The notes under the pieces: generated by a model | Seen by the model: the letters and a program-made list of their open reading frames with translations, nothing else | Database searches by the model: none | Told to the model about the DNA's origin: nothing | Assembly (NCBI GenBank): GCA_937902925.1 | Contig: CALFNN010000087.1 | Span: forward strand, 1-35,369 | Reading direction: 5' to 3' | DNA: 35,369 bases | Source of the DNA: an uncultured Opitutaceae bacterium | GTDB lineage: Bacteria; Verrucomicrobiota; Verrucomicrobiia; Opitutales; Opitutaceae | In this document: positions 7,460 to 33,699 of the stretch, piece by piece | How the letters are laid out: the number at the start of each line of letters is the position of its first letter | How positions within the stretch are numbered: the stretch's first letter is position 1 | Program-made: the position numbers and the translations under genes

Positions 7460-7487
7460 TCGGTGCCACGAGTTTTTTTAAGACCCT

Positions 7488-7529: not shown

Positions 7530-7562
7530 CGGCCCTAATATAGCACGATTGGATTTTACCCC

Positions 7563-10521: not shown

Positions 10522-12117
10522 CTATTGCGGGACCTTGTCGCTGTAGGTCCGGTTGAGCCAGGACTTCGGCACGGGGACGACGCAAATGTTCATGGAGCGG
10601 TTGTCCTCGGAAAGCATCGCGGTTTCAACCTCGATGCGCGTGCTGTCCAAGCTGAAGGTCGGATGAATATGATCGGCGGCGGTCCGTTTGTGGCCCAAAT
10701 CCGCGAGCAAGATCATCTCGCCGGAGTGGCGGTCGATGAGCCAAAGGCGGTATTGGAAGTCGTCACAGACGGCCCAGCGGCCATCCGCAGAGCCGTTGAC
10801 GTGCCAGTCCGAGCGCCCCGGATCGTCCACCGGCAACTGGCCGACAATGCGCATCTCGCGCGTGCGGAGATTGACGATCCCAACACCCGTCGGGTGGTCG
10901 CTGCCGCCCGCAGGGCCCCAAGTCTGAGTGGGATCTCCGGGGGGCCGCGGTGGATTTGCGGCAGGTGCGGCTTGACCGGCGGCTGGCGCGGGGCGGGGCG
11001 GCCGCGGACGTTCGGGCATCCCCGGGAAGGTCGGCGGGTGGAGCGCGATAATCGCAATCGCCACCTCATCCTTCGTGATCACGGCTTCATGCGTGATCCA
11101 TTCGTAGTCGGCTTCGGGATAGAGTGGACGTAAACCGCTGCCGTCGGCCATCACCGTCCAAGTGCGCTGCGGAGCCTTGCCACCGGTCTCCCAGCAGAAA
11201 ACGATTTCCCCGGGCACCCACGGATTCGTCTGGACGTGTCCGATTTGGAAACCGACGCCGGTGACAAACTTCACTTCGCCGGTCTTGAGGTTCATACTGG
11301 CGAGGCCAGACGGACCAGCACCCATGCCGCGCGGGCCGAAGCGCTCGGCGATTTTGGTGCCTGGAGGTAGATGCTTGACCACGTAGTCGCCGGCGATGCG
11401 GAAATATGCGAAGTCGTCGTTGGCATCGATGCCCATGTTGCCATCGGCAGTCATGCCCTCGGGCGTCGTGCCGCAAACGTGTTCATATTCGGAAGCCGCC
11501 TTGAGGGCGCCGGCGGCGCTGTCTGCAAAAAGCTTCGCCAGGTCTACCTCGATGATCTGAAACGGGCCGCGCGGGCGGTTGAATCCACCCCGTCCGCCGG
11601 GGGCGCCGGCGGCGCCAGGACCACTAGGACCGGCCCGACCGCGGGCGGCGGCTTCCGGTGCGGGTGCGGCCGGAGACGCCGCTGCGACGGCAGCCTCAGG
11701 AGGAGATCCGGGGCCAGCGTTGAGTCCAGGGCCGCGGCCCGATCCAGCATTCATATCGCGCATGACATAGAGTTTCATCACGTGGTGGGCGTTGCAGAGC
11801 ATGCCCATGTAGCCCTTCTCGGTCACCTGCACCATCGTGCCGGTCTCCTCATTAACGGCCATCGCCTGGCCTTGGGCGCGGCGGGAACGGAAAATGAGCC
11901 ATTTACCGTCGGCGGTCCACTGCTGGTGGGTCTGATAGATCTTTGAATCTCCTCCCGGCGTGCTCGTGAGGAAGGTGAGCGGCGTGTCTGTCACCGGATC
12001 GACGACGATCTTTTTCTCGGACGGAAACCGCCGGCCGATCTGGGCCGACGCGGGAGACACCAGCAAGAAGACAACGCCCAGCACGAGCGTGGTGTGCAAA
12101 AGCTTTTGATTATACAT
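10522..12117 (-). CDS. Secreted PL22-like (oligogalacturonate lyase-type) beta-propeller protein A
   Basis: The start at 12117 gives MYNQKLLHTTLVLGVVFLLV, a signal peptide cleaved near SPASAQ, and 531 aa; an ATG six codons upstream (12135) is the alternative. The protein is built of TolB/WD40-like blades: THQQWTADGKWLIFRSRR, NEETGTMVQVTE, HEAVITKDEV, SDWHVNGSADGRWAVCDDF, IHPTFSLDSTRIEVETA. The pattern of single conserved His residues (GHVQTNPW, THEAV, DWHVN, HIHPTF) is that of oligogalacturonide lyase (PL22) and related propellers, where such His/Gln residues bind the catalytic metal. A long Pro/Ala/Gly-rich insert interrupts one blade, and a second (RPRPPRPAPAAG) lies further on. Function as a lyase is unproven; it may only be a sugar-binding propeller. 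It is a paralogue of the gene at 12868, in opposite orientation. Confidence 0.7.
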   Translation of the reverse strand: MYNQKLLHTTLVLGVVFLLVSPASAQIGRRFPSEKKIVVDPVTDTPLTFLTSTPGGDSKIYQTHQQWTADGKWLIFRSRRAQGQAMAVNEETGTMVQVTEKGYMGMLCNAHHVMKLYVMRDMNAGSGRGPGLNAGPGSPPEAAVAAASPAAPAPEAAARGRAGPSGPGAAGAPGGRGGFNRPRGPFQIIEVDLAKLFADSAAGALKAASEYEHVCGTTPEGMTADGNMGIDANDDFAYFRIAGDYVVKHLPPGTKIAERFGPRGMGAGPSGLASMNLKTGEVKFVTGVGFQIGHVQTNPWVPGEIVFCWETGGKAPQRTWTVMADGSGLRPLYPEADYEWITHEAVITKDEVAIAIIALHPPTFPGMPERPRPPRPAPAAGQAAPAANPPRPPGDPTQTWGPAGGSDHPTGVGIVNLRTREMRIVGQLPVDDPGRSDWHVNGSADGRWAVCDDFQYRLWLIDRHSGEMILLADLGHKRTAADHIHPTFSLDSTRIEVETAMLSEDNRSMNICVVPVPKSWLNRTYSDKVPQ

Positions 12118-12222
12118 GGGGGTAATCGCTAACAACGGGGATTCGTGGCTCGGTCTTTCGCCATCGAACAGACTGCATAGACCGACTTGAATTTCGAGGG
12201 AAGGGATTTAACATCTGACCGT

Positions 12223-12243
12223 CCCGCAAAAAGCCGTTGCGGG
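12223..12243. repeat. 7-bp inverted repeat
   Basis: CCCGCAA (12223-12229) and TTGCGGG (12237-12243) form a perfect stem with a 7-base loop between the propeller gene and the permease remnant. No T run lies on either side, so it is only noted as a hairpin. Confidence 0.35.
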
Positions 12244-12264
12244 GAGAAGTATTGCACCTGCCAG

Positions 12265-12625
12265 CTACTCGCACTGCCGTGCCACGATTGAATCGACCAT
12301 CGTCGCGCGGCGGGCGGGAATGTAGCACGCAATCACCGCCACCGCCGTGAGTAGCAGCGTGACTGCCGTAAACGTGATCGGATCGTTTGGCGTCACGCCA
12401 CAGAGCAATAGAGCAAGCTCGACAAGGCCCGCGTCGCCGCCATCGCGCCGGCGATCACAATAGCCACTCAGAGCAGCGCTGACGCATGCCTTGGCTCAAC
12501 ATTAGATCGAGCACGTCGCGCCGACCGGCGCCGAGCGCCACTCTCACTCCAGTCTCGTGTGTGCGCCGGGAAACAGTGTAGGCCATCACGCCATATACGC
12601 CGATTGCCGAAAGCAGCACCGCGTC
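12265..12625 (-). pseudogene. ADOP/MacB-type ABC transporter permease, C-terminal remnant
   Basis: The minus strand encodes [20 protein letters not shown] followed by [20 protein letters not shown], the highly typical last-third motif of MacB/FtsX-like permeases of the acidobacterial ADOP type. After a frameshift it continues as IAGAMAATRALSSLL and, shifted again, TPNDPITFTAVTLLLTAVAV and IACYIPARRATMVDSIVARQ, ending in TAG at 12265-12267. At least two frame breaks and the loss of everything upstream of the VYGVMAY motif make it a pseudogene. Its upstream edge coincides with the IS3 transposase fragment that starts near 12622, so an IS insertion plus deletion probably destroyed it. Confidence 0.75.
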
Positions 12626-12814
12626 GTCATCGAAGACTTCCGTCAGGACTACAACAAAGCCCGTCCCCACAGCTCGCTGGGCTACCAGTTACCGCAGCGC
12701 TTCGCCGCGCAGTTCACTCCCTCAATCCATCGCTCCGGGCGGCCTACGGCCTCCCCCCACGATGGATTGCCAACCCCACACCCGTCCGCCATATCAACCA
12801 AACTCCCGGACTAA
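12622..12814 (+). mobile_element. IS3-family transposase C-terminal remnant
   Basis: In the frame of 12557-12814 the translation [20 protein letters not shown] then [10 protein letters not shown] is the unmistakable C-terminus of IS3-family (IS407/ISL-like) transposase OrfB, covering the last part of the rve/DDE domain. The catalytic DDE residues and OrfA are missing. The sequence to its left belongs to a different gene on the other strand, so the left part of the IS is gone. The right end of the IS probably lies somewhere in 12815-12860, but no terminal repeat can be checked with only one end present. Confidence 0.75.
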
Positions 12815-12867
12815 CACCGACCCCGGCCCGAATCCCGCGTCCCCGTCTTCTCATATCTGACAATCTC

Positions 12868-14352
12868 ATGAAAAAAATACTCTGCCTGCTGCCAGAGTTG
12901 GCTGGTCTCGCCTGGTCCATTGCTCTTGTCCTGTCCGTTTCCGCCTTGCTGGTCTCCCCGTTGTCCGCCCAAATCGGCCGGCGGTTCCCGTCGGAAAAGA
13001 AGATCGTCATCGATCCCATTACTGGTGTGCCGCTCACCTTCCTGACCAGCACCCAGGGCACGGGTGATTCCAAGATCTATCAGACTCACCATCAGTGGAC
13101 CTCCGACGGCAAGTGGGTCATTTTCCGCTCCAGCCGTGCGGGAAGCGGCCAGGCCATGGCCGTCAATGAGGAGACGGGGGATATCGTCCAGGTGAGCGAA
13201 TCAGGCTTTCAAGGCATGCTCTGCATCGCCGAGCATTCGATGACCCTCTACTTCCTGCGTTCACAAGCGCTGCCCGGCGCCGCGGTCGAAGCGCCATTCC
13301 CGCCCCCGCCAGCGGCCGCGGCAGGCAGAGGCGACGGTCCGGCCAACACGCGCGGAGGCCGCGGTGGCCGCGGCGGCGGTGGGGTTGGCGGGAGAGGCGG
13401 TCCCCGCGGACCCGCGCAAGTGATCGCCGTTGATCTCGCCAAGCTTTTTGCCGACAGCGCCGCCGGCAGGTTGAAGGCGGCCTCCGAATATGAGCACGTG
13501 CGCGGCACCCTCCCCACGGAGATGGGGGCGCCCGGCGACATGGCCCTCGATCCCACAGAGAATTTTGCCTACATCCGCGTGGGTAGCGTAGAAGCGGCTA
13601 AGCACCTGCCCCCAGACGCCAAGATCGAGAAGTCATTTGGCCCGCGCGGCATGGGTGCCGGTCCGACCGGGCTCGTAAGCATGAATCTCCGGACCGGGGA
13701 AACCAAATTCATACTCGCCGTCCCCTTCCAGATCGGCCACGTGCAGACCAATCCATGGAACCCCGGTGAGATCGTCTTCTGCTGGGAGACCGGCGGCAAG
13801 GCCCCGCAGCGCACCTGGACCGTGATGTCCGACGGCACCGGCCTGCGTCCCCTTTATCCCGAGGCGCCCTATGAATGGGTCACGCACGAGGCCGTCATCA
13901 GCAGGGATGAAGTCGTGATCGCCCTGCTCGCCTTCAGTGGGGAGGGCGTTTGGGATGGAGCCGGCACCGCTGAGCATCCGACGGGCGTCGGGATCGTCAA
14001 CCTCCGCACTCGCGAGATGCGGATCGTCGGCCAGGTGCCGGTCGGCGACCCGGGCCGCTCCGACTGGCACGTCAACGGCTCCTCGGATGGCCGTTGGGCG
14101 GTCTGTGACGATTTCCGCTATCGCCTCTGGCTCATCGACCGCCACTCGGGCGAGATGGCAATAATCGCCGATCTCGGCCAGAAAACCACCGCCCAGGATC
14201 ACACCCACCCGACGTTCAACGCGGACAGCACGAAGATCGAAATTCAGACGGCGATGCTCTCCGAGGACAACCGCTCGTTGAATATCTGCGTGGTCCCGGT
14301 TCCGAGGTCCTGGCTCGCCCGCACCTACGACAACCCAAAAATCGGACCGTAA
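12868..14352 (+). CDS. Secreted PL22-like beta-propeller protein B
   Basis: ATG at 12868 gives MKKILCLLPELAGLAWSIAL, a signal peptide ending near PLSAQ (34-35), and a 494-aa product; the longer in-frame start at 12559 lies in IS3 debris and is rejected. It is a close paralogue of the protein at 10522-12117, sharing IGRRFPSEKKIV, the blades THHQWTSDGKWVIFRS and HPTFNADSTKIEIQTAMLS, and conserved residues H291/Q293, H340-E341, H401 and H447 that match the metal/active-site pattern of PL22 oligogalacturonate lyases. Residues ~153-182 are a Gly/Arg-rich low-complexity insert (GGRGGRGGGGVGGRGG). It lacks the second Pro-rich insert of protein A. Lyase activity is inference. The mobile-element debris in front of it may have removed its original promoter region. 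Confidence 0.7.
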   Translation: MKKILCLLPELAGLAWSIALVLSVSALLVSPLSAQIGRRFPSEKKIVIDPITGVPLTFLTSTQGTGDSKIYQTHHQWTSDGKWVIFRSSRAGSGQAMAVNEETGDIVQVSESGFQGMLCIAEHSMTLYFLRSQALPGAAVEAPFPPPPAAAAGRGDGPANTRGGRGGRGGGGVGGRGGPRGPAQVIAVDLAKLFADSAAGRLKAASEYEHVRGTLPTEMGAPGDMALDPTENFAYIRVGSVEAAKHLPPDAKIEKSFGPRGMGAGPTGLVSMNLRTGETKFILAVPFQIGHVQTNPWNPGEIVFCWETGGKAPQRTWTVMSDGTGLRPLYPEAPYEWVTHEAVISRDEVVIALLAFSGEGVWDGAGTAEHPTGVGIVNLRTREMRIVGQVPVGDPGRSDWHVNGSSDGRWAVCDDFRYRLWLIDRHSGEMAIIADLGQKTTAQDHTHPTFNADSTKIEIQTAMLSEDNRSLNICVVPVPRSWLARTYDNPKIGP

Positions 14353-19659: not shown

Positions 19660-19929
19660 TGGCGAAAAAGGGTTCGTCGCAAAAGTCAGCCGGACGGCTT
19701 GCGATGATTGAGCCAAACGACCCCAAGTATGCAACGTCACACGGCAACGGCGACGGTGGGTGCGACCGCTGGATTACTCCATGGCGAAAGCGACGGTGGA
19801 CGGCAGGACTGACGGTGGCCTGTTCGGGCGGATGACACCAGGTTGTTCAGGACACCCTCGGTTTGATTTCCATGACCACTGCCGCGGCACCCTCACGCTC
19901 ATACTGTGCAACAGTGCAGAATGAACCCT

Positions 19930-20016
19930 CCTCGGGGCAAGCCCCGAGGTATCCCGGAATGGGGCTCCGCCCCGATGACAGCGGGCGGCATCCATCCTCG
20001 AAGCAAGCGTCGAGGA
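19930..20016. repeat. Cluster of three REP-like palindromes
   Basis: Hairpin 1 is CCTCGGGGC-AA-GCCCCGAGG (9-bp perfect stem, 19930-19949). Hairpin 2 is GGGGC-TCC-GCCCC (19961-19973). Hairpin 3 is TCCTCGA/TCGAGGA (19995-20001 / 20010-20016). Hairpins 1 and 3 both carry CAAG at the loop. Spacing is regular (about 30 bases), as in a BIME-type mosaic. Confidence 0.6.
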
Positions 20017-20099
20017 ACGGTGCCGTCCCGATTAGATTGATCGTGTTGCCAAAACCGGTGTCAGTCTTCCAGCCGAGATTAGTTCAGAGCCGGCTCGGC

Positions 20100-20131
20100 G
20101 CGCGGCGAAAATCGCGTGTTTCAAATGCGAA
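20100..20131 (+). repeat. 32-bp direct repeat, copy 2
   Basis: This is the same element as 18535-18566, 28 of 32 bases identical. It lies in non-coding DNA upstream of the glycosidase-like gene. Confidence 0.5.
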
Positions 20132-20373
20132 TGTCATGGAAACAGCTCAAGGCGTTTGGGCTCGGTCCTGCCTCTCATGGTCGACGAGCTTCAATCGCGC
20201 GAGAGATTGGCGGAAGTTGTCGCGAGGGATATTGGGCGTGAGGACAACGAAGCGAACACGGGCGGACACACGTGAACACCGGCGAAAATGAGGAGGGCAA
20301 ATCGCCCCCAATCTACCCCCGAATACCCCGATTTTTCGCTAAGATGTTGGCGGGGCATAAAAGTCACTGCGGC

Positions 20374-20402
20374 TCATAACCTGAAGGTTGTTCGTGCTAA
20401 CC
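20374..20402 (+). other. tRNA-Met-like segment, possible attachment-site remnant
   Basis: CTCATAACCTGAAGGT resembles the anticodon loop and 3' stem of a CAU tRNA. It is followed by GCTAACCCTC, vaguely like the T arm. The 5' anticodon strand does not pair fully and there is no acceptor stem, so it is not a tRNA gene. It lies 20 bases beyond the 3' end of a tyrosine recombinase gene, where attachment sites often are. Confidence 0.2.
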
Positions 20403-20422
20403 CTCAGAGGACGCGCGAATGG

Positions 20423-21382
20423 TCAGTAACTAACTCGATAGGTCGGCGAATTCTCCACCTTGACGACCCGCTTGTCGTAGAGCCGGGTCGTCGAAATACT
20501 CGCATGCCCGAGCCACTCCGACACCGCGGCCAGATCCGCCCCGTGCTCGAGCGCATTGGTGCCCGCGGTGGCCCGTAGGGAATGCGGCCCAAACCCGGCG
20601 ACATCGATCCCGACTTGGTCGGCGTAGCGCATCACGATCCGCCACAGCGAATCAGCGGTTAGAGCGCCGCTCGTTCCCGCCGCCGATGTCCGATTTCGCA
20701 GCGGCCGAAACATCGCACCGTTCTTGTCTGCGCCATGACCGGCCGCCACGAGGTATTCGTTGATGGCCGCGACAGCCACCGGATGCGCAGGAAGAAACCG
20801 GATTTTCCCGCCTTTGCCGCGGAACTCGAGGTGCGCGATCCCACGGCGGTCGGCCAGATATCCCACGAGAAGCGCGGCAACTTCGGCTCGCCTGGGTCCA
20901 TGGAACAGAAATACCGCGAGGATCGCCCGGTCTCGCTTACCGACCAGCGTTGCGGTGAGCGGCGCCGCCAAAAGCGCCCTCGCCTGCCGGTCGCTGATCG
21001 CGGGCGTTTTTCCCTGGTTCGCCCCTTCCTTGGGTCGCTGGACGCCGGCGACCGGATTGTGCATCACGGCATTTCGGTCGCAGAGATACTCGAAGAGGGA
21101 CGACACGGCGGCGATCTTCCGGCGCACGGTGGCGGGCGCCTGATGGGCAATCGTCTTCCGCCAAGCGAGGACGTGCGATCTGCCGACCTTCCTCAGTTCC
21201 TCCGGTGCTGCGATTCCGAGAAAACCCATAAAACCCCGAACATCGCTACGGTAGGCCCGGCGGGTGTTCGGGTTGGTCAAATTGGCGAACCATTCGACCT
21301 CCGGCGGCACGGCCGCCAAGCCCTGGAACTGCTCCGCCGTGAGCGCCACCGGCGCCGTCGCGAGGGCAGAGTGCGTTGCCAT
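20423..21382 (-). CDS. Tyrosine recombinase/integrase (XerC/XerD-like)
   Basis: ATG at 21382 gives 319 aa (MATHSALATAPVAL...). The N-terminal SAM-like core-binding domain covers ~35-120 (TRRAYRSDVRGFMGFLG, RRKIAAVSSLFEYLCDR). The catalytic domain has the full set: R164 (HGPRRAEV), Lys in GKGGKIRF, H267-x-x-R270 (HSLRATAGT), H293 (LGHASISTT) and Y302 (RLYDK). It should therefore be active in cutting and joining DNA. The start codon touches the proposed left terminus of the TniABQ transposon, so its promoter probably lies inside the transposon end. It may act as a resolvase for cointegrates, the role usually filled by a serine resolvase in Tn5053-type elements, or it may be an unrelated integrase. 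Both are inference. Confidence 0.85.
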   Translation of the reverse strand: MATHSALATAPVALTAEQFQGLAAVPPEVEWFANLTNPNTRRAYRSDVRGFMGFLGIAAPEELRKVGRSHVLAWRKTIAHQAPATVRRKIAAVSSLFEYLCDRNAVMHNPVAGVQRPKEGANQGKTPAISDRQARALLAAPLTATLVGKRDRAILAVFLFHGPRRAEVAALLVGYLADRRGIAHLEFRGKGGKIRFLPAHPVAVAAINEYLVAAGHGADKNGAMFRPLRNRTSAAGTSGALTADSLWRIVMRYADQVGIDVAGFGPHSLRATAGTNALEHGADLAAVSEWLGHASISTTRLYDKRVVKVENSPTYRVSY

Positions 21383-21498
21383 TGTCGCTTTGCATTTAAA
21401 TCCCGGAATTTCGGTTGTTCCATATGAACGATTTAAGCTTTGCACCCTGGTCCGGAAACTACACGTAATTCCCGGATATTTGCACGTAAATACCGGAC
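21383..21498 (+). repeat. Transposon left end with three transposase-site repeats
   Basis: Sites in the same orientation are TGCATTTAAATCCCGG (21391-21406), ACACGTAATTCCCGG (21461-21475) and TGCACGTAAATACCGG (21481-21496). A weaker TGCACCCTGGTCCGG lies at 21441-21455. The promoter for tniA, and possibly the one for the recombinase reading left, must lie here. Confidence 0.7.
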
Positions 21499-21519
21499 TT
21501 TTTCAATCGAAGTGATGTC

Positions 21520-23148
21520 GTGAAAAAAAGACCTGATGAAATCTCCGAGGAGCTTTGGGAAATTGGGTGTGCTCGAGAAACTGTTATCCGGACGTTAGCA
21601 GCCAAGCCACGTCTGTCGCGCGAAGACGTTGATGCGGCGGCTGAAGTCTTGGGGATCCGCCGAACCGTCCTGTATGGCCTGCTGGCCGCGTATCGGAAGC
21701 GTCCCCAGACCACTACGCTCGTTCCAAAAGACCGGGGTCGGCGGCCCGAGACCCGCGTCCTCGAAGCAAAGGCAGAGGCGATGATCGCGACTGCCATCAA
21801 GGAGGATTATCTCGTGCGCGAGCGGCCTCGATTTTCCGATTTCATGCTAAGCCTCGGAGCGCGGTATCATGCGGTGGGCATAAAGGTGCCCGATGCGCGC
21901 ACGGTCCGACGGAGGATCGAACAACTCGACCCACGCAACGTTACCGCCGCGCGCTTCGGCGGGAAACGTTCGAGAGAAATCTATGGCCCCGCGCTTGCGC
22001 AGCCCCAGCCACTCGTGCCCCTGAGCATGTTTCAGATGGATCACAGCCCCGTCGACGTCATGGGCGTTGACGAAACTTCTCGATTGGCGATCGGCCGACC
22101 ATGGCTGACGTTGGCGATCGACGTCGCGACCAGAATAATTGCGGGCTTCTACCTATCCTTCGATCCACCCTCAGCGCTCTCGGTGGCACTGGCGCTGACG
22201 CACGCAGTCCTGCCCAAAGAGTCGTGGCTCCTCGAACGAAAGATAGACCTGCCCTGGCCAGTCTGCGGAATTCCCGACCGAATCGAAACCGACAACGCCG
22301 AGGAGTTTCATTCGAAGGCGTTTGAGCGAGGAGCGGGCGAATACGGAATCAAGATTGGCTATCGGTTGCCAGGATCCCCGCAAACCGGCGGTCACATCGA
22401 GCGATTGATCGGAACGTTCATGCACCGAATCCACCTAATCCCGGGAACGACGTTTTCGAACGTCGCGCAAAAGGGCGACTACGATTCGGAAAAGCGAGCG
22501 GTCATGACCTTGAAAGAAATCGAGCGGTGGCTGACGTTGGAAATTCTCGGCGTGTATCACAAGTCAGTGCACTCTGCGCTTCGGCAACCGCCGGAGCATG
22601 TATGGAAGGAGCGCATCAGCATCAAGCCCGAGCCCGTCCGCCATCCACGAGACCCAGGCAGATTCCTACTGGATTTTCTGCCCGGAGAATATCGCATGAT
22701 TCGGCGCGATGGCATCCAACTGCTGAATCTCCACTATTGGGACAATGTGCTAAGCCCAATGGCGGGCCGTTCCAAGTCACCTTTCCTCGTCAAATACGAC
22801 CCGCGGGACCTTTCGCGAGTGTTTTTGTGGGATGCCAAAGGGGACTATTGGACCATCCCGTACCGCGACCTTGGCGCGCCCCCCATCACACTGTGGGAGC
22901 ATCGAAACGCATTGCGCAAACTTCGCGCCGAAGGCGTAAGGATGGTCGACGAGAAATTGATTTTTCAAACGGTCACCGAGCAACGAGCGATCGTTGCGGA
23001 AGCCAAGCGAAAGACACGGGCTCAGCGTTTGATTCATGCCCGAAGTGGAGCGAACATCGGGCAACCGGCGGATCCACCGCCGGCGCCGGCCGACGTGGTA
23101 AGCGACCCGAAGACACTGCCGCCTTTCCCTGTTGAAGAGTGGTCATGA
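21520..23148 (+). CDS. tniA: TniA-like transposase (DDE, Mu/Tn7 TnsB type)
   Basis: The GTG start at 21520 gives 542 aa. An N-terminal winged HTH-like region (~30-140, LSREDVDAAAEVLGIRRTVL) is followed by an rve/DDE core. D174 (FQMDHSPVDV), D258 (RIETDNAEEF) and E294 (TGGHIERLIGT) form the catalytic triad, with the usual ~35-residue D-E gap. After the core comes a Mu-type beta-barrel C-terminal domain (~390-460, IQLLNLHYWDNVL, SPFLVKYDPRDLSRVFLWD). It carries out 3'-end strand transfer, binding the repeated sites in both element ends. Length and order (tniA-tniB-tniQ) fit the Tn5053/Tn402 group. The stop overlaps the tniB start (ATGA), so the genes are translationally coupled. Confidence 0.88.
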   Translation: MKKRPDEISEELWEIGCARETVIRTLAAKPRLSREDVDAAAEVLGIRRTVLYGLLAAYRKRPQTTTLVPKDRGRRPETRVLEAKAEAMIATAIKEDYLVRERPRFSDFMLSLGARYHAVGIKVPDARTVRRRIEQLDPRNVTAARFGGKRSREIYGPALAQPQPLVPLSMFQMDHSPVDVMGVDETSRLAIGRPWLTLAIDVATRIIAGFYLSFDPPSALSVALALTHAVLPKESWLLERKIDLPWPVCGIPDRIETDNAEEFHSKAFERGAGEYGIKIGYRLPGSPQTGGHIERLIGTFMHRIHLIPGTTFSNVAQKGDYDSEKRAVMTLKEIERWLTLEILGVYHKSVHSALRQPPEHVWKERISIKPEPVRHPRDPGRFLLDFLPGEYRMIRRDGIQLLNLHYWDNVLSPMAGRSKSPFLVKYDPRDLSRVFLWDAKGDYWTIPYRDLGAPPITLWEHRNALRKLRAEGVRMVDEKLIFQTVTEQRAIVAEAKRKTRAQRLIHARSGANIGQPADPPPAPADVVSDPKTLPPFPVEEWS

Positions 23149-24053
23149 GCACGGACCTCGATCACCTTTCGCCCCAGTTTAGATTGATTGCGCTCAAGCC
23201 ATCCGAGGAGCGTATCAATTGGATTCAGCAGGACCGATGGATCAGTTACCCGCGTGCAGAAAAGGCGCTGACGTCGATCAACGAACTGCTCGACTGCCCA
23301 ACTCGCACGAGGATGCCGTGCTTGCTCATTACCGGGGCTCCCGGGATGGGCAAAACTCACATCATCGAGAGATTCGTTCGAACTCATCCCGCGGAATTCG
23401 ACGAGAAGGCGGGCACCACCCGCCGGCGCGTCACGGCGCTGCAGATGCCGCCGGAGCCGGTCGAAAAAGAGTTTTACGAGGAGTTGCTCCTTTCGATGGA
23501 CGCGGTTGTGCCGGCGGGCGGCTCGGTTGCCACGCCGCGCGCGCGAACGCGGACTTTCGCCAAGCAGCTTGGACTTCGGCTAATCATCATCGATGAAATC
23601 CACGCGATGCTGGCCGGGACATTCCGCCAGCAGAGGATCCTGCTCAATTCCCTGAGATTTCTCGCAAACGACCTCCATCTGCCGCTGGTCTGTGCCGGAA
23701 CCCACGAAGCCCATCAGGCGTTGCTCACCGACCAACAATTGGCCGAACGGTTTGCCGTTTTTGAGCTGCCCAAATGGAAAGATGAGGATGCGTTCGTCCA
23801 ATTGCTTAACACATTCGCGTCTCTCTTGCCGCTGCGACGGTCATCTGAACTGGGCTCGCCAAAGATTCGCCAGCGCGTCCTCGCCTTGACTGAAGGCGTC
23901 ACGGTTCGAATCTGCCGGGTGCTCGAGGCGGCGGCGATTGCTGCGATCGCACATGGCACCGAGGAAATTACCTTGGACAGCCTGAGCGACGACTTGGTCG
24001 CCCGGTCACTGGTCTCCATTTCAGATCGCCGGCGGCGTCGCGGTGCCGCGTGA
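23145..24053 (+). CDS. tniB: TniB-like AAA+ ATPase, transposition regulator
   Basis: ATG at 23145 overlaps the tniA stop by four bases (ATGA); an in-frame ATG six bases earlier is less likely. The 302-aa product has Walker A GAPGMGKT at 64-71 and Walker B LIIIDEIH with D150-E151, then AAA+ sensor-type sequence LVCAGTHEAHQALLTDQQLA. It belongs to the TniB/TnsC/MuB group. These ATPases form filaments on target DNA and recruit the transposase, and their partner TniQ helps choose the target. Size fits TniB. Its place between tniA and tniQ supports the call. Confidence 0.88.
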   Translation: MSTDLDHLSPQFRLIALKPSEERINWIQQDRWISYPRAEKALTSINELLDCPTRTRMPCLLITGAPGMGKTHIIERFVRTHPAEFDEKAGTTRRRVTALQMPPEPVEKEFYEELLLSMDAVVPAGGSVATPRARTRTFAKQLGLRLIIIDEIHAMLAGTFRQQRILLNSLRFLANDLHLPLVCAGTHEAHQALLTDQQLAERFAVFELPKWKDEDAFVQLLNTFASLLPLRRSSELGSPKIRQRVLALTEGVTVRICRVLEAAAIAAIAHGTEEITLDSLSDDLVARSLVSISDRRRRRGAA

Positions 24054-24065
24054 CTTGAACAGGCG

Positions 24066-25262
24066 ATGGGATTGAATTCTTCGAACCCGCCGCCTCTCCC
24101 TTTCGCGCCACGACCACATCGTGGAGAGAATTTTACCTCGTGGCTGTTGCGGCTCGCTGGGGCGAACCACCTGACGCTGGATGAACTCCGCGACGTCGTT
24201 GCTCCCCGTGATGCCGGGGCCCGTGCTCCCGTTCCCGACTACGAGCAGTCGCCAACTCAACGAAGGAAATGGGCGAAGTTGGCGCGTATCTCCGAATCCG
24301 CCGTTCGCTCCCTCGATCTGAAAACGCAATTCCCGTTTGTTGATCGCAGGTGGCTGCAACTGCCTGACGCGGACTGGTCAGTCCCGGTTTGCTCAGTCTA
24401 TTGCCCGCAATGTTTCGGCGAGCAGATGAGGAATAACGTTCCGCTTCACCTGAAGGCAGAGTGGCGCCTGGCCTTTGTTACCCGGTGCATGGACCACGCC
24501 ACGCCGCTGGAGCAATTCTGTCCCCAGTGCGGAATCGATGAGCCGGTCTCATTCCCCCCGACCACGGCTCGTTGTCGCCGATGCTGGCACAATCTCGCGC
24601 AAAATCCACGTTCGGCCGCCCAGGAACGCGAGCCTGGCATCGTTGCACTGCAACGGATCGCGGTGGATGCATTTGCTGGCAAACGTATCTCATCGGACGA
24701 AGCGCCCGGACTGAGCGCGCCCCAGTTCCGCCGGCTTTTTTCAGAGTTGATCGGACTATTTACGACGGGTGACTTCCGTCACGATCGCGGCACCTTGATT
24801 GCAGCGTTGGCGCCGGGCCGGTTCAGATTACGCGAGCCGTATGAACGTTACCTGGATCCGCCATTCGCCGACCGACATTGGCGGGAGCGCGAGATGGTTC
24901 TGTCGGCCCTTGCGGAACTGGCTCTACCGCTCGCCCGTCGCACCATACCGAACGCGTGGTGGGTGCGGCGCCGGCATCCGCACTGCTCCCCACTCACGAT
25001 GATTCTTAAGCGGGTGACGCAGCACCGTCGCCGGTTCATGGCGATCGTCGGACGCTGGCCAAAGTCGTTCCAAGACCACATTTCGCGGCCGTATCTCGAT
25101 CCAGAGGCGAGCCCCAACCTCCACGGCCAATTACCGCACGAGTCATGTGCATCAGCTCTCTCGGTCGCTGAAAGATTGGAGGCGTTGTGCAAGACAGCCC
25201 CCGTTTCCGGCTACCGGAAAGTCCGGTATTTACGTGCAAAAAGTCCGGGATTTAGATGCTAA
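24066..25262 (+). CDS. tniQ: TniQ-like target-selection protein
   Basis: This 398-aa protein starts 12 bases after tniB. The TniQ hallmark is near the N-terminus (PHRGENFTSWLLRLAGANHL). It is followed by zinc-binding pairs C113-x-x-C116, C141-x-x-H144, C152-x-x-C155 and C170-x-x-C173 (CPQC, CMDH, CPQC, CRRC). TniQ/TnsD proteins link the AAA+ ATPase to a target site. The last ~20 residues (VSGYRKVRYLRAKSPGFRC) are encoded by the right-end transposase-site repeats themselves (25223-25260), so coding and cis-acting DNA overlap. No attachment-site gene is evident next to the element, so its target rule is unknown. Confidence 0.85.
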   Translation: MGLNSSNPPPLPFAPRPHRGENFTSWLLRLAGANHLTLDELRDVVAPRDAGARAPVPDYEQSPTQRRKWAKLARISESAVRSLDLKTQFPFVDRRWLQLPDADWSVPVCSVYCPQCFGEQMRNNVPLHLKAEWRLAFVTRCMDHATPLEQFCPQCGIDEPVSFPPTTARCRRCWHNLAQNPRSAAQEREPGIVALQRIAVDAFAGKRISSDEAPGLSAPQFRRLFSELIGLFTTGDFRHDRGTLIAALAPGRFRLREPYERYLDPPFADRHWREREMVLSALAELALPLARRTIPNAWWVRRRHPHCSPLTMILKRVTQHRRRFMAIVGRWPKSFQDHISRPYLDPEASPNLHGQLPHESCASALSVAERLEALCKTAPVSGYRKVRYLRAKSPGFRC

Positions 25263-25309
25263 AAGCCGCCCGGCGCCCCGTGATTCCGGGATTTAAGTGC
25301 AGTCCGACA
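25221..25309 (-). repeat. Transposon right end with three transposase-site repeats
   Basis: Sites in inverted orientation to the left end are CCGGTATTTACGTGCA (25223-25238), CCGGGATTTAGATGCT (25245-25260) and CCGGGATTTAAGTGCA (25286-25301), followed by GTC and the terminal CGACA (25305-25309). The first two lie within the 3' end of tniQ. Confidence 0.7.
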
Positions 25310-25779
25310 CCCCACGCCACTACCGTGCCATCGCCTTTCAAGGCCAACGTGTGATAACTGGCAGCCGAAATGGCCGTTATCCCGCTCAAACCGGATGGCA
25401 CGGCCGTTTGACCATAAGTGTTGTTTCCCCACGCCACGACTGTGCCGTCGCTCTTCAAGGCCACAGCGTGATCATAACCCGCCGCTATGGCCGTCACCCC
25501 GTTCAATCCGACAGGAACGCTGGCTGGAACGGCTCCTGAATCTTGATTATTTCCCGCATAATAACCCCACGCCACGACCGTGCCATTGCTCTTCAAGGCG
25601 ACCGAAAAATGACCGCTTCCCGCGATGGCCGTCACACCGCCCAACCCGGCAGGAACAGCCGAAGCACCGCCCACCACAAATCCCCATTCCCCCACAGTGC
25701 CATCACTCTTCAAAGCTATGCTGTGATAGTAAAGCGCAGGGAACGGCGCGCGGAGCTCCGGCGACACCAACCGGGCCAA
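25310..25779 (-). pseudogene. RCC1-repeat (beta-propeller) protein fragment, cut by the transposon
   Basis: The minus strand encodes about three RCC1-type repeats of the form G-x-TVVAWG...VTAIAAG-x-x-HA-VALKSDG, each about 50 residues (for example HAVALKSDGTVVAWGNNTYG). The frame continues past 25310 only as translated transposon end (VGLHLNPGITG). On the other side it starts inside a repeat (YYHSIALKSDGT) without a plausible signal peptide or start. It is thus a middle fragment of a larger, probably secreted or surface, repeat protein. No continuation is found to the left of the transposon, so a deletion accompanied or followed the insertion. Confidence 0.7.
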
Positions 25780-25825
25780 ACCACTTCACCCCAGCGTCCC
25801 TTCGCCGCCGTTTGAGGATTGGTGT

Positions 25826-25869
25826 CTTATACTCTGGACAAGGACGCCATTGGATGGCCAAAGTATGAG
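25826..25869 (+). promoter_or_regulatory. Probable hipBA operator/promoter
   Basis: An inverted repeat CTTATACTCTGG (25826-25837) / CCAAAGTATGAG (25858-25869), 10 of 12 positions complementary, with a 20-base spacer, lies directly before the antitoxin start at 25875. TATACT within the left arm is a good -10 box. HipB-type antitoxins bind such paired sites to repress their own operon. No clear -35 box is seen. Confidence 0.55.
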
Positions 25870-25874
25870 ACATC

Positions 25875-26252
25875 ATGCCGCGAACTACTCCCACGCTCTT
25901 TCCGCCTGCGACCCGCCAACTCGCCTCGCTGGGTGAGCGCCTTCGCGTCGCCCGATTGCGCCGGCGTTATTCCGCCGACTCCGTGGCCAAACGAGCCGGC
26001 GTCGCCCGTGGGACCCTCTATCGCGTCGAAGAAGGCGACCCCGGCGTCAGCCTCGCCACCTACGCCAGCGTGCTTCGCGTGTTGGGCCTGCAAGGCGATC
26101 TCGATCTCATCGCCCGCGACGACGTGCTCGGCCGTAAACTTCAGGATTTGAAATTGTCTACCCGCAAAGTCGCCCCGCGTCGCGCCTCAGTTTCTCCAAA
26201 AACATCGGCCGGCGCCAACGATCCCGTTCCGCCCGCCCCTTCCTCGTCATGA
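25875..26252 (+). CDS. hipB: HipB-like antitoxin, XRE-family HTH
   Basis: This 125-aa protein has a Cro/C1-type helix-turn-helix at about 18-75 (LGERLRVARLRRRYSADSVA, RAGVARGTLYRVEEGDPGVS, LATYASVLRVLGL). The tail (LSTRKVAPRRASVSPKTSAG) is basic, flexible and Ser/Pro rich, as in antitoxins that thread into their toxin. It overlaps the hipA start by four bases (ATGA). It likely neutralises HipA and represses the operon at the repeat in front of it. The ATG at 25875 has no evident ribosome site. Confidence 0.8.
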   Translation: MPRTTPTLFPPATRQLASLGERLRVARLRRRYSADSVAKRAGVARGTLYRVEEGDPGVSLATYASVLRVLGLQGDLDLIARDDVLGRKLQDLKLSTRKVAPRRASVSPKTSAGANDPVPPAPSSS

Positions 26253-27544
26253 GTGCCAGCGCGAAAAAGTCTGCCAGTGCCAACCGGCAACAAATCGATG
26301 TCTGCCTCGATGCCGACATCGTCGAGGCGCTTTGCCGTGTCGGCACGCTCTTCCACGCAGCGGGTCACGGTCACTCGGTTTTTTCCTTCGCCTACGATCC
26401 GGATTGGTTGCGCCGGCCAAACACCTTCGAAATCGACCCCGACCTGCAACTGCACGATGCCGAAAGCTATCCCAGCCAGCCAACGGGCGTGTTTCGGATT
26501 TTCACAGACTCCGCGCCCGACCGCTGGGGTCGCTTGCTGCTCGACCGTCGCGAAACCCTCAAGGCCCGCGAAGAAAAACGACCACCCCGGACGCTCACGG
26601 AATGGGACTATCTCCTCGGCGTGCATGACAGCTGCCGGATGGGTGCTCTCCGCTTCCGGCAGGACGCCGGCTCGCCGTTTTTGGACAACGACCGCAACCA
26701 GGCGGCGCCGCCCATCGCCTCGCTGCGCGAACTCGAAGCCGCGTCGCTGGCGCTCGAAGCGCCGGATGCCGACGAGCAACCCGAGTTTCGCCAATGGCTG
26801 ACCGCCCTGCTGGCCCCCGGCAGTTCGCTCGGCGGCGCCCGGCCCAAAGCCAATTTTACTGATCCGGAAGGAGCCTTGTGGATCGCCAAGTTTCCGAGTC
26901 GCGAGGACCGCCGCGACATCGGCGCCTGGGAAATGGTGGTGCATCAGCTCGCCAAAGCCGCCGGCCTGAACGTCCCGGACACCCAGCTCCTCAGTCTGGG
27001 CAGCCGTCACCGGACCTTTGCCAGCCGCCGGTTTGACCGGTTCGCGAACGGCCGGCGGCGTTTCTTCGTGTCGGCGATGACGCTGCTGAACCGACAGGAT
27101 GGCGAGAACGCCAGTTATCTGGAACTCGCAGAATTTCTCAGCACGCGCGGCAGTCCGGCACACAAAGATGCAGACCTGCGTGAGCTATGGACGCGCATCG
27201 TTTTCAACATTCTCGTCTCCAACCGGGACGACCACCTGCGCAATCATGGTTTCATTTTATCCGCGGACGGCTGGCGCCTCGCGCCCGCCTACGATCTCAA
27301 TCCGAACGTCGAACGAATCCACCACCAGTTGGCCATCGACTCCAGCGATGCCACTCCCGATGTGGCTCTCGCGCTGGCCACGGCCGAGTTCTACGGCCTG
27401 ACCAACGCGCAGGCGGCCAAAATTCTGCAACGCGTGCGGGAAGCCGTCAGTCAGTGGCGGACGGTCGCTACGAACCATCGGCTTCCGCGCGCGGAAATCG
27501 AACGAGTGGCGCAAGCGTTTTCCCTGCCGCCGGTCGGAAGTTGA
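26249..27544 (+). CDS. hipA: HipA-like serine/threonine kinase toxin
   Basis: This 431-aa protein has the HipA fold. The N-terminal subdomain holds RIFTDSAPDRWGRLLLDRRE and TEWDYLLGVHDSCRMGALRF. The Gly/Ser-rich loop GSSLGGARPK at 191-200 contains the usual autophosphorylation Ser. The ATP-binding Lys is K214 (WIAKF), the catalytic loop N325-RDDHLRN332 and the metal-binding D349 in PAYDLNP. All key residues are present, so it should be active. HipA kinases phosphorylate aminoacyl-tRNA synthetases (GltX in E. coli) and cause growth arrest; the target here is not known. It forms an operon with the HTH antitoxin just upstream (4-base overlap). It is probably part of the mobile accessory block with the R-M remnant. 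Confidence 0.85.
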   Translation: MSASAKKSASANRQQIDVCLDADIVEALCRVGTLFHAAGHGHSVFSFAYDPDWLRRPNTFEIDPDLQLHDAESYPSQPTGVFRIFTDSAPDRWGRLLLDRRETLKAREEKRPPRTLTEWDYLLGVHDSCRMGALRFRQDAGSPFLDNDRNQAAPPIASLRELEAASLALEAPDADEQPEFRQWLTALLAPGSSLGGARPKANFTDPEGALWIAKFPSREDRRDIGAWEMVVHQLAKAAGLNVPDTQLLSLGSRHRTFASRRFDRFANGRRRFFVSAMTLLNRQDGENASYLELAEFLSTRGSPAHKDADLRELWTRIVFNILVSNRDDHLRNHGFILSADGWRLAPAYDLNPNVERIHHQLAIDSSDATPDVALALATAEFYGLTNAQAAKILQRVREAVSQWRTVATNHRLPRAEIERVAQAFSLPPVGS

Positions 27545-28034: not shown

Positions 28035-29267
28035 TTACGCCGCCCAATCGGCGCAGAGGAGTTCGGCCTGCGCGAGGACGGTCTTCACCGCCGCTTCCTG
28101 CAAGTCCGGCGGGTACGCTCCCAACAACCCGCGGCTCGGCTTGAGCACCGAAAAACCTTTGATGTCCGGTGCGCTGAGACTCGGGAATACGGAGCCCGTG
28201 GTCTTTTCGAGTAAGCGCTCAAGGCCAACGTTAATCGTCTGGTAGAGGAAACCGTGAAATCCATCTTTGGCCCGAATGGCGCAAACGCCGCGACCGATGC
28301 CATATTTTCCGTCTGAAACCACACGCCTGCCGGTCGTTGAACCGCGCACGCAGAAGATTAGATCACCTTCGGCGGCGAAACGCGTCGCTGCTTCGGTCCA
28401 TTTAGATTTCACCGGAAAATAGTCGCCGAACTCCACCGGGCCGTTGATCAACGGTATGCCGATTCCGTTGGCGTTGTAGCTGTCGCCGTCTGGGGAGAGT
28501 CCCATCATGACGGAAGCGAGTTCGTCGAGTCGCGTAATGTCCCAACCCCGAGGAATTGGGCCGAGCGGAGAGTCTTGGAAGCTCGTGGGGAAAAGAGCTG
28601 CGGTGGATTCATCGAGGGCGGTAGGTTTGCGGCCGTCGAGTTTGGCGCGGACGGGGTCGAAATCCAAGAACCAGCTCTGGAACAGCGCCCGCGCCATCGC
28701 CTCCAGCGTCGCGTTCATTCGCCGGTTCAACTCGATCTTGTCGTCCAGCGCCCCAAGCACCGCCGCGATGGCTTTTTGCTCGGCGAGGGGTGGGATGCTG
28801 GCCTTGTGCGCGAGGATGCGTCCGGGCGATGTGTGCTTGACGGTTGTGCCAGTCGAGCTCGCCAAGACCTCGTGTCGATACTCTTCTGTGCGGAGAAGGT
28901 AGAACAGGAAACCTCGGTCCAGTTCAGCGCCACGTTTTATGAGAACCTTCCCGAGCCGCTGATTGTGGAGGAAGCGCGGGCCACGAGGTTTCGGCACAAG
29001 CGCGGGAAAGCCTAACGTGTCCGCCTGCTTGCTCAGGTCTGTCATGGTCACGACGAGGTCGCCTTCGTTGAGGACGTAATCGTCGGGAACCTCACCGTCG
29101 AAGTATTTGAACTTGTCGCCCTTGAAGCCTCCGCCGATGGCAAAGTTTCCCGGCGTGAGGAGAATGTCGCCGGGTGGCGCGTCGCGAATGTTTTCACCGG
29201 GAAACGCGAAGCCGTGCTTCACGTCCATCACTGCGGCGAGCGATATTTCTTTCCAATCACGCCCCAT
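28035..29267 (-). CDS. hsdS: Type I restriction-modification specificity subunit HsdS
   Basis: ATG at 29267 gives 410 aa ([20 protein letters not shown]); the longer frame to 29531 lies in the antisense of hsdM and is rejected. The layout is the usual pair of target-recognition domains separated by a conserved helix. TRD1 (~1-175) ends in [20 protein letters not shown]. The central spacer is [20 protein letters not shown] with [16 protein letters not shown] (~180-235). TRD2 (~255-385) begins [22 protein letters not shown]-terminal helix ends [10 protein letters not shown]. It would set the DNA target of the HsdM methylase. The start overlaps the original end of hsdM by 11 bases, the normal coupling in hsdMS. 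It appears intact, unlike hsdM, and no hsdR is seen. Confidence 0.85.
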
Positions 29268-29391
29268 AACCCATCCCTCGTAAATTCGTCGTGATGGCCT
29301 TTTCCAGTTTCGCGGACTCGGCGAACTGACCATGCAGTTCGGCGACGAGGCGCGGCATCTTCTCCTCGAAGGGATCGCCGTCGTCTTCGAC
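29257..29391 (-). pseudogene. Detached C-terminus of hsdM after premature TAA
   Basis: Immediately after the TAA at 29394-29392 the same frame continues [44 protein letters not shown] and stops at TGA 29259-29257. This is exactly the expected end of HsdM proteins of this type (YVGAEEVEDDGEPFEEKM...). One base change (GAA to TAA) separates it from the main gene. Confidence 0.8.
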
Positions 29392-30909
29392 TTACTCGGC
29401 GCCGACGTAGCGGCCGGGCGTGAGGACGTGGCCGTGCGCGGTGATTTCGGCCGTCGTCGCGGATTTACAAAATCCGGCGACGTCGGAATACGCGGACGCC
29501 TGCGGAGAGGCGTCCCTACCTTTGTCACCACGCCACGCGTGGTAGGTGGTGGTGATTTTCTGAATGTCGTCGTCGGTCAGCTCGCGGTGGACGCGGTCGG
29601 TGAGCGTGCCCATTTTACGGGCGTCGATGAACAGCGTTTGCTTCCTTCGGTCGCGCAAACGCCCCTCACCCCGGCCCTCTCCCACTGGGAGAGGGTGACG
29701 CGCAGCGGCGGGTGAGGGTTTGCCGCCGGATTTGTCGCGGCAAATAAACCAGAGGCAGACGGGAATCTGCGTTGAATAAAAAAGCTGGCCGGGGAGCGCG
29801 ACCATGCAGTCCACGAGATCGGCCTCGATGAGTTTTTGCCGGATGTCGCCTTCGCCGGACTGGTTGGAGGACATGGCGCCGTTGGCGGAGACGAAACCGG
29901 CCATGCCATGGGGCGCGAGGTGGTGGACGATGTGCTGAATCCAGCCGAAGTTGGCATTGCCCTTGGGCGGGAGGCCGAAGCGCCAGCGCACGTCGTCGTC
30001 CGAACGGAACCAGTCGCTGACGTTGAAGGGAAAGTTCGCGAGGATGAAGTCGGCCTTGAGGTCCGGGTGGAGATCGGAGCGGAAGGTATCGGCCGCATGG
30101 GAACCGAGGTCGCCGTCGATGCCGCGGATGGCGAGGTTCATGACGGCGAGTTTCCAGGTGGTGGGATTCGACTCCTGCCCGTAGATGCTGAGGTCGCCGA
30201 GCTTGCCGCCGTGGGCCTCGATGAATTTTTCGCTCTGCACGAAGAGTCCGCCGGAGCCGCTGCAGGGGTCGTAAACGCGGCCCTTGTAGGGGGCGATCAT
30301 GAAGACGAGGAGCTTGTCCACGCACTGCGGGGTGTAGAACTCGCCGCCGCGTTTGCCCTCGGCACTGGCAAAGCGACCGAGGAAGTATTCGTAAACGCGG
30401 CCCAGCAGATCAACGGAGCGCGAGGATTGGCCGGCGCCCTCCTGCGGCGAGGCGAAGAGGGTGATCGTGCCGATGAGGTCGATGAGTTCGCCGAGGCGGT
30501 GTTTGTCGAGGGCGGGGCGGGCGTAGTCTTTGGGGAGGACGCCTTTGAGGCGGGGATTGTCGCGCTCGATGGCGACCATGGCATCGTCGAGGGACTTGCC
30601 GATGGTGGGCTGCTTGGCGCTGGCCTGGAGGTGGGACCAGCGGGCTTCCTTCGGCACCCAGAAGACGTTCTCGGCTTTGTATTCGTCGGCGTCCTCGGCG
30701 TCGGCGTCTTTGTTCGCGAGGAGCCTGGCGCGGTGCTCCTCGAAGGCGTCGGAAATGTATTTGAGGAAGATGAGGCCGAGGACGACGTGCTTGTATTCCG
30801 CGGCGTCGAGGTTGTTGCGGAGCTTGTCGGCGGCGAGCCAGAGCTTGGCCTCGAAGCCGATGGTGGCGGAGGACTGAGCGGAGGAAGCGGGGGATTTAGC
30901 GCGGGCGAT
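29392..30909 (-). CDS. hsdM: Type I R-M methyltransferase HsdM, C-terminally truncated and start-less
   Basis: Clear Hsd[21 protein letters not shown] then [20 protein letters not shown] at the N-terminus, SAM-binding motif I D214-PCSGSGG, motif IV N292-FPF, then [20 protein letters not shown] and LFIDARKMG. It would methylate adenine with HsdS. Several defects are visible. The natural start should be [10 protein letters not shown] but the codon is ATC (30909-30907); the nearest in-frame ATG is at 31029, through an unlikely leader. Motif IV reads NFPF rather than NPPF. A palindromic repeat is inserted in frame at ~29660-29718. TAA at 29392 removes the last 45 residues. With no hsdR in view, this is most likely a decaying methylase. 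Confidence 0.8.
29660..29718. repeat. Palindromic repeat inserted in frame inside hsdM
   Basis: CCCTCACC (29663-29670) pairs with GGTGAGGG (29711-29718), and inside it CCCTCTCCC pairs with GGGAGAGGG (about 29675-29696). This is the widespread intergenic palindrome type found in many bacteria. Here it adds about 19-20 residues ([20 protein letters not shown]) between CRDKSGG and the LFIDARKMG motif of HsdM. Confidence 0.75.
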
Positions 30910-31323
30910 GAATGAGCGGTAAGCAATAAGCTTTAAGCGGAAAGCGAAACGGAGCGGACGGAGCAGAGAAAATTGAGAACTAAAGGGAGTGAGGCTGAAC
31001 AGGCAGTATGCGGTGGCCGGTCGGCACATCCATCCAATATGCGGGCGGCATCGGATTTTTCTGCACGGAGGCAACCGTGCGGCAAATCGTGATTGAACAT
31101 CAACCAATCAAAGGATGTTACCCAAATGCGCCCCAAACGCGGCGGGTCTGGCCGCAGCGAGGGAGGAGCGGTGAAGCCGCGATCCCGAGCGAAGCGCCAG
31201 ATTGGCCGCGACGCGGCGCACAATCAAGCGCACCAGCCTTGCGCGAAGCGGCGCGACAACGGAGCGACGAAGAGCGGAGGGCTGGCTTTGGTGGCGCCGG
31301 TTGTCCGTGACCAAGCGCAACCG
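30910..31323. other. Intergenic stretch upstream of hsdM
   Basis: No gene is supported. The left half (about 30910-31120) reads as an hsdM leader with the low-complexity run AGCGGAAAGCGAAACGGAGC on the plus strand. The right half is GC-rich with GCAGCGAGGGAGGAGCGG and GAGCGAAGCGCC-type repeats. An hsdR gene, if it ever lay here, is gone. Confidence 0.4.
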
Positions 31324-31917
31324 CTAGGTCTTCACAAAATGTGCGACTATCAGCGCCAGGAGCGCGCCGCACGCGGCGCAGGCGATATAAGGCCAAGCTC
31401 GGGTCTCAAGGGAGACGCGTGCGACCCAGTTCTGCGCCTTCGTCGCCGCGGCGTGGTGTTCTTTCGTGGCGGTTTGGAATTCGCCGCACGCCGCCTGCAG
31501 CCGGGCGGCGCACTGGTTCGCCGTTTCCTCGAAACGCTTCGCGGTTCGGTCGAGCGACTGCGCCGCCTGCTGCTCTTTGTTCTGCCACGCAACGATGTTT
31601 TGCTCCAAGAGTTTTTGATGCGCAGTAAAAAGCGTGCGCACGTCAGCCGTGGCGTTGGTCGTGGCGGTCTCGTGCTTGGCGCAAAGCCGCCCGAACTCGG
31701 CAAGCAGTTTTTCTCGCTCGATGCCGAGAGCTTCCGGCACTTGCCGGGCGATGCACGTGAAGATCGCCATGCCCTCTGCCAGCACCAGCAGCGAATCGCC
31801 GGGATCGAGTGTCCGCAGGTGCGCCACGTAGCGAAAGAACATCTCGCGTTGCTCGGTCGGCAGGTAGGAGCCGATGCGGTCATACACCGAGTCGGCAAAT
31901 CGCGCGGGTGCCGTCAT
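31324..31917 (-). CDS. Coiled-coil membrane protein of transfer operon (TraM-like position)
   Basis: This 197-aa protein starts MTAPARFADSVYDRIGSYLP. The middle part (~75-160) is helical and Gln/Ala/Glu rich (HQKLLEQNIVAWQNKEQQAA, RFEETANQCAARLQAA), consistent with a coiled coil. A single C-terminal membrane helix (WPYIACAACGALLALIVAHF) anchors it. Its ATG overlaps the TGA of the preceding ATPase gene (ATGA at 31914-31917). Size, order and coupling resemble traM in the RP4 traKLM operon, but I see no specific sequence signature. It is probably an inner-membrane accessory factor of conjugative transfer, which is inference from context. Confidence 0.65.
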   Translation of the reverse strand: MTAPARFADSVYDRIGSYLPTEQREMFFRYVAHLRTLDPGDSLLVLAEGMAIFTCIARQVPEALGIEREKLLAEFGRLCAKHETATTNATADVRTLFTAHQKLLEQNIVAWQNKEQQAAQSLDRTAKRFEETANQCAARLQAACGEFQTATKEHHAAATKAQNWVARVSLETRAWPYIACAACGALLALIVAHFVKT

Positions 31918-32968: not shown

Positions 32969-32970
32969 GG

Positions 32971-33678: not shown

Positions 33679-33699
33679 GGTTGGATGCGGCGGAGGGTT

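Follow-up and report, generated by a model that had tools for sequence, protein, structure and literature searches.

A gene for a tyrosine recombinase whose start codon touches the end of a transposon raises the question of whether that gene belongs to the transposon and resolves its cointegrates, or belongs to the DNA into which the transposon was inserted. The case considered here was found in a window of 35,369 nucleotides (the whole stretch of DNA analysed), which is an entire contig (C87) of a 6.0 Mb genome. In the initial annotation, the recombinase was considered as a possible part of the transposon. Our analyses lead to a different answer: the recombinase is a target-side gene and not a transposon gene. 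Comparisons of sequences and gene neighbourhoods indicate that the transposon is probably a Tn5053-like element, related to elements that insert beside the crossover core of plasmid-type tyrosine recombinases.

Extent, ends and genes of the window transposon

The transposon spans 3927 bp (21383-25309), from TGTCG at 21383 to a CGACA terminus at 25309, and only tniABQ lie inside it. The left end (21383-21501, plus strand) consists of the TGTCG terminus and subterminal repeats (inverted repeats I1-I3 and I5), which are putative TniA-binding sites. The right end (25218-25309, minus strand) has three subterminal repeats and the CGACA at 25309 (direct repeat D2, inverted repeats I1-I3). The terminal inverted repeats (21383-21414 and 25278-25309) match at 81% over 32 nt, and the subterminal repeats at 21467-21501 and 25218-25252 match at 86%. 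The first gene, tniA (21520-23148, plus strand), encodes a transposase with the Pfam domains Mu_transpos_C and HTH_Tnp_Mu_2, 44-47% identical to TniA proteins from alphaproteobacterial plasmids. It is followed on the same strand by tniB (23139-24053; Pfam TniB, 3.9e-63), encoding an AAA+ ATPase, and by tniQ (24066-25262; Pfam TniQ, 7.3e-15), the product of which is presumed, from the role of its family, to be the target selector.

The consecutive tniA, tniB and tniQ genes on one strand and the TGTC-type inverted ends with subterminal repeats are features of Tn5053/Tn402 elements. Two further features of these elements were not found at the window copy: a serine resolvase of its own (tniR) with a res site, and a 5-bp target duplication (left flank GCCAT, right flank CCCCA). 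The tni genes leave 137 bp free on the tniA side and 47 bp on the tniQ side, which is too small for a serine resolvase gene.

A fragment of an RCC1-repeat gene (25310-25779, minus strand; Pfam RCC1_2, 9.9e-28) runs into the right end. Beyond it, a HipBA-like pair (HTH and HipA_C, 25875-27544) lies immediately to the right of the transposon. The remainder of the contig on this side (28035-35361) contains type I restriction-modification genes (hsdS and hsdM), a ParA-like gene and, at the contig end, a TraA/helicase-like gene, a content that suggests a plasmid or similar element. Three GH2 family glycoside hydrolase genes are found in succession at 1604-10142.

The tyrosine recombinase at the left end

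The gene adjoining the left end (20423-21382, minus strand) encodes a XerC/D-like tyrosine recombinase of 319 aa (Pfam Phage_integrase, E=1e-19; Phage_int_SAM_1, 3.7e-8) and is located outside the inverted ends of the transposon, which speaks against the initial suggestion that it is part of the element. A motif alignment showed that all the R-K-H-R-H-Y positions, which we take to be the catalytic residues, are present. The protein did not reach the NCBIfam equivalog cut-offs for XerC or XerD orthologues (XerD, 131.4 bits versus 329.6; XerC, 127.8 versus 335.15). The recombinase ATG (21380-21382) is, as originally described, in direct contact with the TGTCG at 21383, and the reading frame continues without a stop into the transposon end, as far as a GTG at 21445. 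The proposal that the promoter of the gene lies within the transposon end appears weak, since a scan of 21340-21560 for sigma-70-type promoters found none, and the leader (AGGGTGGG followed by ATG) present in both close relatives described below is missing at the window recombinase. Expression of this gene may therefore be damaged.

A conserved linkage of the recombinase with tniABQ, which the initial annotation suggested looking for, was not supported. In a survey of 252 genomes from the family of the window organism (E<=1e-30 for the recombinase and E<=1e-6 for TniA), the recombinase was found in six genomes and TniA in 12, and the window's own genome was the only one with both. The two thus occur apart in other genomes, an observation that the initial annotation itself had named as one that would refute its view. 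Relatives of the recombinase were present in 2477 plasmid records, all with less than 60% identity (best 59.7%).

Sites with the recombinase and a core but no transposon

The closest relatives of the recombinase are encoded by genomes G459 (locus L073, 91% identity) and G506 (locus L074, 78%; this assembly is 8% contaminated). Neither genome has a TniA match, and no match to tni genes was obtained in the L073 and L074 stretches. Both have a perfect palindromic core, ACGTCTGATAA-AATAGG-TTATCAGACGT, with a spacer of 6 (ACGTCTGATAA-6-TTATCAGACGT), 34 bp upstream of the recombinase ATG, on the side now occupied by the transposon in the window. The similarity detected by blastn between the window and L073 covers 20463-21382, ending exactly at the transposon boundary, and that with L074 ends at 21354. 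The transposon thus occupies the expected place of the recombinase upstream region, core included. A recombination site within the left end of the transposon was considered and rejected, since the closest two empty sites have their core upstream of the gene.

Three plasmid loci (L085, L086 and L087) also have a recombinase, a core and DUF1403 with no tni match; the L086 stretch contains a serine recombinase elsewhere. In L085 and L086, 19 bp lie between the core and the start codon annotated for the recombinase. In L087, it is 933 bp away, with two genes between, and contact with the ATG is therefore not general. L084 was rejected as an empty site because phmmer matched tniB-tniQ-tniR remnants in it, away from its core.

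Related transposons beside plasmid cores

The best plasmid matches to the window TniA (44-47%, among at least 5000 records) were used to collect related loci; 17 of the best 30 rows were taken in and 13 were left out. All 17 loci are from alphaproteobacterial plasmids. The right end of the transposon was located 26-27 bp from the arm of a palindromic core in 12 of the 17 (L036, L038, L042-L047 and L050-L053), sites that are partly non-independent, as pC and pD (see below) and L083 have nearly one flank, and L038 and L046 have one flank. The distance is 27 bp in 11 of these loci and 26 bp in L043. The cores have 11-bp arms with inner GATAA/TTATC and a 6-7-bp spacer. For eight of the 12 loci, the position of the right end had been fixed from the pairing of the inverted ends ahead of any core measurement, and for L047, L050, L051 and L052 it was taken as the GACA terminus at that distance from the core; the termini of L051 (TGACA) and L088 (CCACA) were placed by eye. 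Shuffled sequence yielded no hits in 522,140 bp with the strict core scan and 26 in 533 kb with the loose scan; the core of L045 comes from the loose scan and reading by eye.

An intact tyrosine recombinase is found beside the transposon, on the side away from the core, in nine of the 12 core-site loci, the gene is broken in L045, and none was detected within the stretches read for L047 and L052. DUF1403 and scpB are on the core side in all 12. A module consisting of a tyrosine recombinase, a core and DUF1403-scpB, often near repABC, recurs on plasmids (L036, L042-L044, L050, L051, L053 and L085-L087); no mention of DUF1403 was found in the open PMC papers searched. A nucleotide search using the flank on the DUF1403 side retrieved L083, in which the right end is also 27 bp from the core. 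Two of the collected loci, L048 and L049, are parts of tandem arrays: beside L048 (in L088), 27 bp separate a core from the innermost right end, and beside L049 (in L089, a Sulfitobacter plasmid), one array is at 27 bp, the right end of the left array being unplaceable and the placed one having a second CGACA 6 bp earlier. Several different tniABQ elements are stacked at plasmid sites of this kind in L089 (10700-35600), L052 and L088, and those of L089 flank a recombinase-bearing segment on both sides. Neither a right end nor a core was found in L035, L037 and L039; L035 and L039 are the closest rows to the window TniA among the matches listed (46-47%).

The core-site elements did not form a single clade in the TniA tree. 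In this tree, three Legionella rows (51-58 X) and G039 (17 X) were partly translated out of frame, making their placement meaningless. G039 (TniA 38%) was set aside because its tniA-like gene follows a long frame that was taken, by eye, for tnsA. The Legionellaceae loci (L013-L016) have a resolvase match and, wherever the two ends were callable, ends like those of Tn5053. In L014, a Tn5053-like element with its own resolvase (6799-13094; target duplication AAAAT) is located 120 bp from a perfect palindrome and appears to split a tyrosine recombinase gene within its N-terminal part.

In the eight plasmid relatives with both ends called, the target duplication is complete (5/5) in L036, L043, L044 and L046, 4/5 in L042 and L053, 3/5 in L045 and 1/5 in L038, and some relatives, such as L036, have tniR. 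The contact between transposon and recombinase ATG seen in the window recurs in L038; 49 bp separate the transposon from the recombinase start in L046, the transposon of which is identical to that of L038. Exact contact is not a rule, as the distance to the recombinase start differs among loci. Nevertheless, the placement of the relatives in the same kind of site suggests that the contact in the window is not mere chance.

Identical copies and exchange of flanks

Ancylobacter polymorphus ZM13 carries a 5284-bp transposon, with no mismatches, at the equivalent site in each of the plasmids pA, pB, pC and pD. The recombinases beside these identical copies differ: those of pA, pB and pD are 80-86% identical to each other, and that of pC is only 27-32% identical to them (partial alignments). 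Target duplications are complete in pA (GGTGG), pB (CGCCC) and pD (TCGCG). This pattern is best explained by recent and repeated transposition into the four replicons in a site-specific manner. In pC, the left flank is TCGCT and the right flank TCGCG. The right flank is that of pD for 54 bp, up to 2 bp short of the core end, and then diverges; past the core, pC and pD are alike at 48 of 100 positions, no more than other pairs. A similar case was found in two Pseudohalocynthiibacter plasmids, pRR4-35_4 (L038), with no target duplication, and pRR4-35_2 (L046), with a complete TCGTC. Their transposons have 0 mismatches in 3773 positions, and the right flank of L038 is that of L046 for 57 bp, through the core, with divergence thereafter.

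Core-by-core resolution of a cointegrate would leave a product with its own left flank, the donor segment up to the core and no duplication. The exchange of flanks at the core agrees with such a product, as expected if the recombinase of the target had resolved the cointegrate. However, a two-step exchange between two element-bearing plasmids would look alike, so that resolution is not the only process from which these footprints could come. None of the plasmids compared had the reciprocal flank that the donor-side product would carry.

The window copy and a second copy in the same genome

The strict scan found no core in the window, and no core with up to three mismatches was found in its genome (95% complete). 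No core-like palindrome was detected in 25200-26300. The only palindrome in 19700-21500 (20462-20492, inside the recombinase gene) is a weak one, matching at 10 of 12 positions, and was not taken for a core. The RCC1 fragment has no other match in the genome and stands where the relatives predict the core-bearing flank. We consider that the window copy probably lost its core side when a deletion or rearrangement joined the right end to the RCC1 gene, although an assembly fault might also have created this junction. With the core side lost, resolution through the core would be unusable as the window copy stands, and this copy looks stranded. As it has no core, its targeting has to be read from its relatives. 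The offset implied for the window is 39 bp (duplication included), not 27, if there was no deletion on the left side and the leader was not shorter.

On contig C92 of the same genome lies an element related to the window transposon that is decayed and has an internal deletion (L012, 6192-6800). It keeps remnants of tni genes and, by eye, both ends, and is flanked by a helix-turn-helix gene and by a gene for a different tyrosine recombinase. A candidate core, an imperfect palindrome, is found opposite its right end, beside the start of that recombinase gene, and part of this candidate-core block is common to relatives in G506 (82%) and G033 (77%). We count this case as supporting only.

Proposed mechanism and alternative explanations

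We propose that TniQ and TniB would sense the complex of a recombinase with its core, as Tn5053 uses a serine resolvase at res, and that insertion at a fixed offset would generate a cointegrate. The tyrosine recombinase of the target would then resolve the cointegrate by recombining the two cores, each of which lies beyond a right end; the short stretch from right end to core would be exchanged in the process and the target duplication erased. Subtracting the duplication from 27 bp puts the left boundary of the insertion at some 22 bp from the core, and the core is 19-34 bp from the start codon in compact empty sites, so this offset places the left end near the ATG. The window copy would afterwards have lost its core side through a deletion or rearrangement ending in the RCC1 gene. 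We put at about even the chance that, as a group, these tniABQ elements sense core-bound tyrosine recombinases, insert at a fixed distance and resolve through the enzyme and core of their victim. If so, the exchanged unit would be the transposon plus about 27 bp and half a core, and such elements would be expected to lose tniR and their target duplications. The initial suggestion that the recombinase resolves cointegrates thus stays plausible for the enzyme of the target plasmid acting at the target core, and is not supported for an enzyme of the transposon; the role of the target enzyme is suggested by the flank-exchange footprints at cores 26-27 bp outside the right ends.

A possible but less favoured explanation is that TniQ reads DNA near the core, as a TnsD-like attachment site or a DUF1403-scpB operator, with the recombinase playing no part in targeting. 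The segment between right end and core is indeed somewhat similar among the alphaproteobacterial sites, with a TATAAT-like stretch (by eye), and the offset is kept in L047 and L052, for which no recombinase was found in the stretch read. However, when this segment of pA is compared with those of pB, pC and pD, no more than 9-11 of 26 positions agree and the offset is still 26-27 bp, the G459 and G506 empty sites have only the core type in common with the plasmid sites (by eye), and Tn5053-type elements use the resolvase of their target site, according to the available text of PMC7765201.

A chance insertion near a recombinase on a plasmid-like contig would fit the lack of both core and target duplication in the window, and relatives of the recombinase are common on plasmids. 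We nevertheless regard coincidence as unlikely, given that related elements have the same placement and that a second, decayed copy is found beside another tyrosine recombinase in the same genome.

The least probable explanation, already largely refuted, is that the recombinase is a TnpI-like resolvase of the transposon itself, the real boundary of an unusual Tn5053-type element lying beyond it. In its favour, a serine resolvase gene would not fit into the element, 14 of the 17 plasmid loci have a tyrosine recombinase (in one case a broken one) no more than 6-7 kb upstream of tniA, and tyrosine resolvases are reported for tnsA-lacking Tn7-like elements in the accessible part of PMC8649781. Against it, the gene is outside clear inverted ends with no core in the window by strict scan, the same transposon accompanies dissimilar recombinases in pA-pD, G459 and G506 have the recombinase but no match to TniA, and complete target duplications bracket the transposon without the recombinase in half of the eight loci with both ends called.

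Comparison with known systems

Insertion beside a recombinase-bound core, as we propose for the window type of element, reads as a tyrosine-recombinase version of res-site hunting. It would leave a precise footprint in the exchange of flanks at the core, making the cointegrate route testable, and it could explain the tyrosine 'resolvases' recorded beside tnsA-less Tn7-like elements. Where a tyrosine recombinase neighbours a transposon, the ends should be checked before the gene is booked as a transposon gene.

In Tn4430-type Tn3 relatives, the tyrosine recombinase TnpI resolves cointegrates at the palindromic core of its IRS site, and enzyme and site are both inside the transposon. The likeness extends to the class of recombinase, the palindromic core and, as proposed here, the resolution of cointegrates. 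In our case, however, enzyme and site belong to the target and are outside the transposon ends. TnsF of Tn6022-like Tn7 relatives is, in the sections of PMC10293859 that were available, a transposon-encoded, inactivated tyrosine recombinase domain that targets comM. It shares with the window system the link between a tyrosine-recombinase fold and target choice by a TniQ element, whereas the window recombinase keeps its catalytic motifs and is resident at the target, outside the ends. We therefore rejected a Tn7-like element with a TnsF selector.

The closest parallel is provided by the 'res-site hunters' Tn5053/Tn402, which, as described in the available part of PMC7765201, insert at the res sites of serine resolvases, use the resolvase of the target and form cointegrates, the resolution of which is aided by the target-site resolvase. 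No description of insertion at tyrosine-recombinase cores was found in the portions of open PMC papers available. In104 in SGI1 is presumed, in the accessible text of PMC12217951, to have inserted by res hunting upstream of a recombinase gene, splitting its resolution site; there, however, the enzyme is a Tn3-type (serine) resolvase and the site is res. The targets of Tn5053/Tn402 are likewise serine-resolvase res sites, whereas those considered here are tyrosine-recombinase cores at an offset of 26-27 bp, and the window element is without tniR and res. Targeting of the tyrosine class as well, which is chemically unrelated to the serine class, would point to recognition by these transposons of some property general to recombination complexes.
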